NCBI GenBank assembly: GCA_034509925.1
Contig: CM067528.1
Span: forward strand, 7,277,001 to 7,341,000
Direction: 5' to 3'
Length of the DNA: 64,000 nt
Source of the DNA: Hirudinaria manillensis
Lineage: Eukaryota; Annelida; Clitellata; Hirudinida; Hirudinidae
Each line of letters starts with the position of its first letter. Position 1 is the stretch's first letter. The position numbers were made by a program, and so were the translations under genes. A model generated the notes under the pieces. It had not been told where the DNA came from, searched no databases, and was given only the letters and a program-made list of their open reading frames with translations. Shown piece after piece: positions 1-21,355 of this stretch.

Positions 1-1264
1 AAACCACCGATCTATCGTCTGTAATTGACTTTTGAGAAAAAATTGGTTCCCAAAACTGGAGCAGTTGTTCGTGTGGTATGGGTTTAACTTCCTCGTTATA
101 TTCTTCATTCAAAACCGAACGAGCTCCTGAAGATCTATTCTTCCTGAATAACCCTTGGACCTTTGCTCGTTTCATCTTTCTGTCTTCCCTTCTTATCTCC
201 TTCTTGGATGGTCGGATCTTCGTTGTCCGAAATGGTCTGGTCAGATTTCCCGCTTGACTTTGGTCAGATGCAGCATAGGAAGTAGTCTCGACCTTCGGAG
301 GCCGCTTTTCATATCTGTCAGCTCCCTTCTTTCCACTGTGCACTTTCAAACCCTCCATCCATTGTATGTATTCCTTGTCTATCAAACGGCGCTTTGAGTC
401 CATGTCATCAACTTGATTTCTCAACAGTTCGGAAAGTTCCTCGCATGGCAGACTTATGTATTTGTAATTTGCGAGTATAAATTGCTGCAGTTGAATGAAG
501 CTATTCACTTCCGCTTCGACTGGAGATGCCGTGAGTGTGGGAATCGCAGTACATTTCGTAGGCTTGCCAGAGCAAGTTGTCTTTTCAATGATGTAGTTAT
601 TTAGATACTTGCGATATCCTGGCTTGTTCCTAACTTTCCTAATGGTTTCAACTGGGACGGTTGGCAAGTATCGGTGAAGGGCAAGGTTGACCTGCTTTTT
701 CTCAAGTGAATTCAGCCTCCATTCGGCGCTGGCAATCTCGTTCCATAGGCTGTCCACCCCTGAGAGAGCAGAAGTAATTTCACGGTTGGATGAACGTTCA
801 ACTTGACTCTCTGATCCACCAGATTCTATTTTAGTCTGGTATTTCTCCAAGATGATCCTATATTTGGGCTGCCTTCTGTGAGACTTAATGGCATTCAGTG
901 ACCTGTGTGGGAAACCTTTCTGTGCCTCTATGTTGATGTTTCTGATTCCTTTGCTTTTCAGTTCCAATTCAAACTTGGCTAACAGTGTGGATTCTTCCTC
1001 AGTCCAAACACACTTTGAATAACTTTTGCCAGCTCTTTCTTTGTGGTATTCCTCTGGGTGAGCATGGTTCTGATGGATTCTAAGACCTCGTACTGTTTTG
1101 AAGACAGCTTCACAAAAACAACAGGTTTCTTGCTTTTCCTCATTGCTTGTGTCTTTCACAACTGAATTTGTAACTGGAGGCACAGCAACGCTTTCGCCGG
1201 AGGAGTTCTTTTCAAATATGGCTCGAGAACGAAGAGTTCTAACTAGGTTGTCGGAATTGGACAT
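1..1264 (-). CDS. R2-clade non-LTR retrotransposon, N-terminal part of the single ORF (cut by window edge)
   Basis: A reading frame of 421 codons runs without a stop from ATG at 1264 to the left edge. Residues 48-69 form a C2H2 zinc finger with C48-x2-C51-x12-H64-x4-H69 and the F....GL..H....HP pattern typical of R2 proteins. Residues about 87-135 form a Myb-like helix module (WTEEES, then IN..A....R....I..HRR). Further on are LFRKNRSSGAR and LQFWEPIFSQ, resembling the segment ahead of the reverse transcriptase in R2. In this clade the finger and Myb domains bind target DNA for target-primed reverse transcription by the RT and restriction-like endonuclease, which would lie beyond position 1. 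The frame is also open upstream to about 1367, so non-ATG initiation is possible. The block is richer in GC than its surroundings and has no disabling mutation, so the copy looks young. Family assignment is by motif only. Confidence 0.8.
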   Translation of the reverse strand, partial: MSNSDNLVRTLRSRAIFEKNSSGESVAVPPVTNSVVKDTSNEEKQETCCFCEAVFKTVRGLRIHQNHAHPEEYHKERAGKSYSKCVWTEEESTLLAKFELELKSKGIRNINIEAQKGFPHRSLNAIKSHRRQPKYRIILEKYQTKIESGGSESQVERSSNREITSALSGVDSLWNEIASAEWRLNSLEKKQVNLALHRYLPTVPVETIRKVRNKPGYRKYLNNYIIEKTTCSGKPTKCTAIPTLTASPVEAEVNSFIQLQQFILANYKYISLPCEELSELLRNQVDDMDSKRRLIDKEYIQWMEGLKVHSGKKGADRYEKRPPKVETTSYAASDQSQAGNLTRPFRTTKIRPSKKEIRREDRKMKRAKVQGLFRKNRSSGARSVLNEEYNEEVKPIPHEQLLQFWEPIFSQKSITDDRSVV

Positions 1265-1440
1265 TCCGAAACGGTGAAAGCTACAAGTTTTCAAGAAGAC
1301 TGCGAGTCCGTAAACGAAAGTCAACAGACACGACGATACGGAAGGATTTTCGTTCGCAAGTCTTCAATTTTCCCCTTTTCTTTTACAGAAACAGTAAAAT
1401 GATTTCACCTTCAGACAAAACGGAAGGTAGGGGACACGAA

Positions 1441-1547
1441 TAAGCTAAATTCGGAGAAATTCGATAATTTCCGAGCGAAATTAACATGTATTTAACACGA
1501 AAACACGCAAGAAAAACAAATCGACCGCTCCTTAGCTTACTCGCTCG
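1441..1547 (-). ncRNA. Candidate HDV-like self-cleaving ribozyme at the 5' end of the R2-like element
   Basis: On the minus strand, CGAGCGA (1547-1541) pairs with UCGCUCG (1478-1472) over 7 bp. UAAGCUAA (1539-1532) pairs with UUAGCUUA (1448-1441) over 8 bp. The strands come in the order P1, P2, P1', P2', which is the interlocked arrangement of HDV ribozymes. Between P1' and P2' lies a perfect 6-bp hairpin, GAAAUU-AUCG-AAUUUC (1471-1456), in the P4 position. It is followed by UCCGAAU, which includes a CNRA-like joining segment. R2 and related elements are known to carry such ribozymes at their 5' ends. Weak points are the long P3 region and a P1 that starts with C rather than G. Confidence 0.45.
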
Positions 1548-1555
1548 AAACTATG

Positions 1556-1883
<328 letters not shown>

Positions 1884-3065: not shown

Positions 3066-3222
3066 GCCATTCACACATCCATTCACACGTCCATTCACAC
3101 GTCCATTCACACATACATTCACACGTCCATTCACACATCCATTCACACGTCCATTCACACATCCATTCACACGTCCATTCACACATCCATTCACACGTCC
3201 ATTCACACATCCATTCACACAT
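3066..3222. repeat. 12-bp minisatellite, CATTCACACRTC unit
   Basis: About 13 head-to-tail copies of CATTCACACGTC or CATTCACACATC, the two variants partly alternating. The unit is a multiple of three, so both strands show open His-Ser or Cys-Glu-Trp repeat frames. I do not consider these genes. Confidence 0.95.

Positions 3223-8036: not shown

Positions 8037-21355
<13,319 letters not shown>

Follow-up and report, generated by a model that had tools for sequence, protein, structure and literature searches.

The RNA 5′ end of F1, a family of R2-like LINEs with one copy opening the window (the whole 64,000-nucleotide stretch of Hirudinaria manillensis DNA analyzed here), probably forms a nested pseudoknot with HDV-type strand order, a 5′-end module descended from R2/R4-type elements. 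In element nucleotides, the order is P1 (1-5), one letter, the side hairpin P1.2 (7-115), one letter, P2 (117-122), the P3 hairpin (123-144), P1′ (144-148), P4, a short A-rich strand, and P2′ (175-180). P1′ lies about 140 nt downstream of P1, right after P3 and inside the UCCCCU/AGGGGA stem P2. This fold is supported by comparison between families, in that predicted counterparts of P1, P1.2, P2, and P3 are present in four families of the genome. Its likely ancestors are HDV-like ribozymes such as those found in R2/R4-type elements, and it would act as the 5′-end module of the retrotransposition template, with the RNA 5′ end fixed and protected at P1 or at most about two letters from it. We describe it as HDV-like in layout and do not claim it as an HDV ribozyme. 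The features concerned, including strands of P1 and P2 as first proposed in an earlier note on this DNA, are as follows.

1..1550, minus strand: 5′ part of the R2-like LINE, family F1; the element extends past window position 1
1546..1550, minus strand: P1 5′ strand UUUCG, the element's first letters (start in 30/40 copies; covariation)
1532..1544, minus strand: 5′ strand of the P1.2 basal helix, holding the P2 5′ strand first proposed (best fold of F1A)
1449..1531, minus strand: upper part of P1.2, folding as a long rod in F1A but weakly in F2 and F3
1472..1478, minus strand: P1 3′ strand as first proposed; its CUCG core also occurs in F2, F3, and F5
1436..1448, minus strand: 3′ strand of the P1.2 basal helix, holding the P2 3′ strand first proposed
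1429..1434, minus strand: P2 5′ strand UCCCCU (folds and family comparison)
1423..1428, minus strand: P3 5′ strand ACCUUC (three pairs changed on both sides)
1407..1412, minus strand: P3 3′ strand GAAGGU (family comparison)
1403..1407, minus strand: P1 3′ strand UGAAA, with U 1407 shared with the closing pair of P3 (covariation)
1379..1402, minus strand: P4-like hairpin (1402-1394 / 1386-1379), missing or different in the folds of other families
1377..1378, minus strand: strand AA between P4 and P2′, lacking a cytosine at the place of the catalytic C of HDV ribozymes
1371..1376, minus strand: P2 3′ strand AGGGGA (folds and family comparison)
1262..1264, minus strand: first in-frame ATG of the F1 ORF, giving a 5′ UTR of 286 nt
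1552..1593, minus strand: 5′ copy of the target site duplication (TSD), 42 bp, an exact match to the 3′ flank
1557..1883, strand not given: (ATT)n microsatellite (Tandem Repeats Finder)

The F1 element at the window start has a full length of 3,932 bp in the assembly (G000:C3). It is bounded by a 42-bp target duplication of AAT-repeat sequence, exact on both flanks, and a single extra G (1551) stands at the 5′ junction between the duplication and the element. The ORF spans 1195 codons from stop to stop (copy L049) and contains an RVT_1 domain (PF00078, E 1.7e-32), the only domain that Pfam returned for it. Its best match among solved structures is PDB chain 8gh6 (E 1.3e-112, over residues 62-181 and 389-1178), which is listed as a reverse transcriptase-like protein and which we take to be the silkmoth R2 (R2Bm-type) protein; the matched regions presumably correspond to the zinc finger, Myb-like, and restriction-like endonuclease domains. 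This kinship of the reverse transcriptase with R2 identifies the element as an R2-like LINE. In contrast to R2Bm-type elements, the F1 copy lies in an AAT repeat and not in 28S rDNA.

The family looks recently active, judging by its sequences, because 10 of 39 scored genome matches to the F1 protein (scored out of 1513 candidates) run stop-free from residue 1 to residue 1193 or beyond. A public collection holds a 1165-aa protein (P0001, source lgn; protein only, no DNA) with 76% identity to the F1 ORF, indicating that a close relative is present in another sample. No relatives of the ORF were found among viral contigs. An upstream AUG is located at 1487-1485 (minus strand; element nt 64-66), inside the P1.2 hairpin; the frame that it opens at 1487 runs across P2-P3 to a stop at 1383-1385, within the 5′ UTR.

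F1 elements have a uniform 5′ end. For this comparison, 40 of the 42 DNA matches were fetched, with two short partial matches excluded, and 30 of the 40 start by alignment with the TTT at 1550-1548. The remaining ten begin at least one letter later and include some truncated or decayed copies, as well as L038, in which the TTTCGAG start is present but was missed by the alignment. The letter preceding TTTC varies (T 17, A 7, G 4, C 2, in the slightly different set of 30 copies where the motif was found). Uniform 5′ ends with variable upstream flanks fit the copying of a processed or protected 5′ end. The earlier note had placed the start of the element next to the ATT array, at an inferred cleavage position; the element does adjoin the array, but it begins at 1550 rather than at 1547.

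Two queries, the F1 protein and P0002, a distant relative, served to collect further families. The F2 protein is 55-57% identical to that of F1 and is encoded by a 1143-aa ORF; F3/F4 have 1160-aa open frames, in the same genome as F1. We read the 5′ ends of 11 F2 loci, of which 10 reach the element start (L084 does not), and of six F3/F4 loci, one of which (L095) lacks part of its start. A genome search with the pattern GTCCCCTA-N25..55-AGGGGA returned 125 places (68+57; among the matches listed, at least four are unrelated by eye) versus 3 (2+1) for a backward control, and brought out a further family, F5, with many copies known from DNA only, and one old copy, F6. Compensatory variants of P2 (GTGTYTCCTA-N25..55-AGGARA) occur at 4 places in the genome versus 8 in the control, and there are 0 genome places each for a shorter and a longer spacer between the P2 strands.

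The families F2, F3/F4, and F5, together with F1 (L080-L102), lie mostly beside AAT repeats and have the same 5′ layout; the repeats are immediately upstream in most fetched copies of each family and absent from some. At G000:C11:2957045-2961532, an F2 copy is followed closely downstream by an F5 5′ end in the same orientation, which suggests a nested or clustered insertion. At G000:C4:4399873-4399907, the start of an F3 copy bears GTGTCTCGAG twice in close succession; the doubling might stem from a template jump at the 5′ end.

The main evidence for the knot is covariation in P1 between families. In each of F1, F2, and F3, the element's first five to six letters are complementary to those directly after the P3 hairpin (UUUCG/UGAAA in F1, GGCUCG/UGAGC(U) in F2, and GUCUCG/UGAGAC in F3). 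The last pair is a G-U whose U also closes the P3 hairpin. The pairs at positions p1 to p5 are as follows.

F1: U-A, U-A, U-A, C-G (no p1)
F2 (copy L087): G-U, G-C, C-G, U-A, C-G
F3: G-C, U-A, C-G, U-A, C-G
F5: U-A, G-C, U-A, U-A, C-G

Over these four families, 18 Watson-Crick pairs and one G-U give 19/19 paired positions, a result that only the true one of the 24 possible assignments of 3′ strands to families achieves. Adding the decayed F6 gives 23/24 pairs, reached by 1/120 assignments; counting p2-p6 with G-U free gives 24/25, reached by 4/120. The comparison set consists of four families and one old copy, all from one genome.

For F5 and F6, the P1 letters were predicted from P1′ and written down before the 5′ letters were seen, as (CU)GUUC-G and (AU)UCUC-G, respectively. 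Of the five F5 copies fetched, four match the prediction at its three variable letters and differ little from one another; the fifth, L097, has a different 5′ flank. The four start with UGUUCG, pairing with UGAACA over six letters, and have an A in place of the further outer C that was predicted. The F6 prediction held only in part, as this copy reads UCUUCG, with one C x A mismatch and one G-U in p1-p5. Within F2, four of ten copies have G-U as the outermost pair, and six have G x A.

These results bear on a simpler account, which has no pseudoknot. The RNA would be a row of hairpins (the P1.2 rod and the P2-P3 stem) with its 5′ end set by transcription start, and the pairing in P1 would reflect chance or shared ancestry. 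We consider this unlikely given the compensatory P1 changes in F2, F3, and F5 and the fulfilled F5 prediction, and given that the variable 5′ letters fit just 1/15 (F2), 1/16 (F3), and 1/29 (F5) places of the P3′-P2′ strand. Hairpin folds alone nevertheless account for the folding energies, and the P1 of F1 itself is weak: it has four pairs, three of them U-A, plus the G-U whose U belongs to P3 as well, and its two variable letters fit 8/27 places. P1 is six pairs long in F5 and F3 (terminal G-U included), five to six in F2, and four to five in F1.

A start site would also fit the overhang seen in F3. The first letter of P1 is also the first letter of the copies in F1, whereas those of F2, F3, and F5 begin zero to two letters upstream of it. 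A G[C/T] precedes the first P1 letter in 19/19 F3 copies among the matches listed, is absent from two F3 copies fetched separately (L091, L093), and has a counterpart, GC, in 4/10 F2 copies. The F3 overhang counts against an HDV-type cut because such a cut would leave none.

The pseudoknot that we favor also contains helices with other kinds of support. In P3, three pairs show a change of both partners, in one row apiece. Across six rows from F1, F2, and F3/F4 (F5 and F6 were dropped since the aligner misplaced them), 95% of 60 cells are paired versus 87.6% in shuffles, with 7/500 shuffles as high; sliding the strands out of register leaves 34.5-65.5% paired. P2 is invariant between families save single decayed letters, and therefore receives no covariation support. 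Compensatory changes were counted for P1 and P3 and judged by eye for the P1.2 base. When the P1 strands are kept free, the best folds of F1A, F2, F3, and F5 consist of P1.2, P2, P3, P1′, an optional P4, an A-rich strand, and P2′, with P2 pair probabilities of 0.86-1.0. The basal helix of P1.2 has a counterpart in F2, F3, and F5; in F2, the letters flanking P1.2 number 3 and 4, not 1 and 1. With the P1 strands unconstrained, the best fold of F5 loses P3 and that of F3 places the P1′ letters in a hairpin. P2 was not seen in the F6 fold.

A long rod was considered as the main answer for F1 and was rejected, as its strong z-score is confined to F1A: for the whole first domain, F1A has -5.1, two F1-B copies have -1.1 and -0.4, and F2, F3, and F4 have -1.9, -0.7, and -1.2, respectively. 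From these folding models, only the base of the P1.2 rod looks general.

The earlier note had described a different knot within the same 5′ end. It comprised a P1 of seven Watson-Crick pairs (CGAGCGA 1547-1541 / UCGCUCG 1478-1472), a P2 of eight (UAAGCUAA 1539-1532 / UUAGCUUA 1448-1441), a P4 of six (GAAAUU 1471-1466 / AAUUUC 1461-1456), and a joining strand UCCGAAU at 1455-1449, all on the minus strand. Every letter of these interlocked perfect helices is present in the sequence. They are also rare in dinucleotide shuffles of the 110-nt stretch: the interlocked 7+8-bp pair occurs in 10/4000, with a P1 start within 4 nt of the 5′ end in 3/4000, and together with a perfect 6-bp P4 in 0/4000, a test that the real sequence passes, though all three figures are flattering given that the thresholds were derived from the tested sequence itself. 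The note's general claim of an HDV topology at the 5′ end of an R2-like element holds insofar as a knot of HDV layout is supported there; its assignment of helices is not supported. The 5′-terminal letters of F2, F3, and F5 covary with the counterpart of 1407-1403 and not with that of 1478-1472. The P2 proposed there forms the base of P1.2, the side hairpin that separates P1 from the P2 now placed at 1434-1429 / 1376-1371.

Read as a complete model, those helices would form an HDV ribozyme at 1547-1441 with its catalytic C in UCCGAAU and a cut at 1548/1547. We regard this as very improbable, even though its perfect helices seldom arise in shuffles. The element starts at 1550, not at 1547, and in F2 and F3 the seven-pair P1 is interrupted close to the 5′ end by mismatched letters outside the CGAG core. 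If G-U is allowed, it extends to 11 pairs (1550-1540 / 1479-1469), exceeding the 6-7 bp given as usual for R2 HDV-like ribozymes (PMC3774820). No P3, L3, or P1.1 could be placed in F1 beside its P2 and P1′, and a one-letter spacer between P1 and P2, such as this model has, gave little activity in a tested HDV-like ribozyme (PMC4908430). In its favor, a C-N-R-A motif stands just before the P2′ counterpart in F1-A, F1-B, F2, and F3 by eye; F5 has none there by the same inspection. The first 115 nt also have a knot-free alternative, a single extended hairpin with an energy of -39.1 kcal/mol (z -5.3; shuffles -23.1, sd 3.0); this P2 forms part of its 13-bp base, and part of the P1 strand is taken up in it too.

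Compensatory changes among F1 copies, which the note had named as a check, gave a mixed outcome. One pair of its P1 is changed on both sides in L038 (C-G to U-A, at CpG sites) and one pair of its P4 in L044. Against this, the six older F1-B rows have lost one P4 pair in 6/6 and another in 4/6, and have a U x C mismatch in P1 in 5/5 rows that reach it. In F1-B, hairpin cells are kept at 75% and those of the proposed knot at 73%, values due in part to the alignment slipping in a loop. Variation within F1 is limited, with few changes and decayed older copies; with one or two both-sided changes for either structure, it does not decide between the hairpin and these helices.

One component of the proposed P1 recurs in other families. 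The side hairpins of all four families contain a CUCG complementary to the invariant CGAG at the 5′ end (F1 nt 76, F2 40, F3 40, F5 41), which is matched by 65/5000 shuffle sets; it is absent from F6. F5 even has a counterpart of seven pairs, two of them G-U. CUCG is thus an alternative partner for the P1 letters, and its match with CGAG may be a second contact sharing letters with P1; the core is invariant and so offers no covariation.

As for the pseudoknot supported by family comparison, the nested order P1-J1/2-P2-P3-P3′-P1′-(P4)-J4/2-P2′ is found in the comparison of F1A, F2, F3, and F5, and the standard features of an HDV active site are mostly missing from these sequences. No catalytic C stands at the start of J4/2 beside P2′ in F1, F2, or F5, which carry A or G at this point, in AAAAGGGG runs. 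In F3 the letters here are CAAAGGGG (CAAA, so a C), and in the old copy F6 UUCAAGAAGGGG. An HDV-type P3 measures about 3 bp and is capped by a short, conserved L3; the families instead have hairpins of about 4-7 bp with differing loops of 5-13 nt, and no P1.1 consistent among families was found by eye. On these sequences, the structure may self-cleave by some means, at slightly less than an even prospect; self-cleavage through a standard HDV active site is most improbable.

Searches with HDV models were in line with this. The descriptor check suggested in the earlier note came out no better than shuffles: a home-made descriptor with strict rules, run with no known ribozyme as positive control, gave one match in F1, as in 7/60 shuffles, and none in F2, F3, F5, or F6. 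A loose version was discarded as too permissive, with matches in 57/60 shuffles; the best F1 score of 41, against a highest shuffle score of 40, used the P1 of the earlier note with other P2 strands, and counts in favor of that model. Rfam gave no match at gathering scores in the whole window; with E values up to 10 allowed, HDV-type matches were likewise absent from window positions 1300-1700, L087, and L091, with models that may miss a large J1/2. A genome-wide search with RF00094 had no match either, and neither did control genomes.

The layout has precedents in the literature. In the R4-type element Dong of Bombyx mori, an HDV-like ribozyme self-cleaves at the 5′ junction, with a TAA-repeat leader (PMC3774820). 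Compared by description, F1 is likewise an R2/R4-type LINE in a TAA/AAT repeat with the P1 of the knot at or near its first letters; unlike Dong, the leech families have a long P1.2, a long P3, and no consistent P1.1, and the family in the window lacks a C beside P2′. Silkmoth R2 5′ ribozymes with a large J1/2 of 216-498 nt (PMC3774820) and drz-Agam-2-1 with its P1.2 stem (PMC4908430) have the same succession of P1, an inserted J1/2, P2, P3, P1′, and P2′. However, R2 ribozymes are reported to keep the catalytic C and conserved P1.1-P3-L3 letters within moths and within flies (PMC3774820), in contrast to the families described here. Changing the catalytic C to U abolishes cleavage in the R2 of the silkmoth Samia cynthia (PMC3774820) and serves as a negative control for theta ribozymes (PMC10879173). 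Among the openly accessible papers searched, none was seen to describe a 5′ structure of this kind; subscription papers were outside the scope of this search, and a description may be in print.

The 5′ end might also be produced by a 5′-3′ exonuclease that trims read-through RNA as far as the knot, whose junction would hold the 5′ letters in an xrRNA-like manner. The 5′ letters in the junction, the small and variable overhang, and the lack of an HDV catalytic C in F1 would all suit such a fold. xrRNAs halt the exonuclease some letters ahead of the fold, however, which counts against this reading. Findings on R2 point both ways: protection of R2 templates against 5′ decay has been proposed for an HDV-like fold, but the R2 fold with a changed catalytic C is severely impaired as a template (PMC11331408). 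Overall, we consider an exonuclease stop very unlikely.

For the favored reading, an R2/R4-descended 5′-end module, the same source provides a functional parallel. A ribozyme fold at the 5′ end of the R2 template raises insertion, and deletion of a P2 strand or a change of the catalytic C is severely inhibitory (PMC11331408); the effect of the latter speaks against a purely structural role in R2. R2-type elements are under development as gene-insertion tools, in which the 5′ ribozyme fold strongly affects insertion (PMC11331408). Related families with the same strand order and an altered or lost active site would offer a natural test of fold versus cut. It is doubtful, but would be of consequence, that several AAT-targeting LINE families have in common a self-cleaving or end-defining RNA with HDV order and a different active site; if so, the HDV fold would have outlived its catalytic cytosine or acquired other chemistry. 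The case also illustrates that a knot read from a single copy can misplace P1 and P2.

Two other features of the window were recorded. An open frame at 20738-21352, perhaps an exon, matches the membrane region of neurotransmitter-gated ion channels at 25.2 bits, below the cut-off of 28.1. At 3067-3222, Tandem Repeats Finder reports a 13-copy array of the 12-bp unit CCATTCACACAT.
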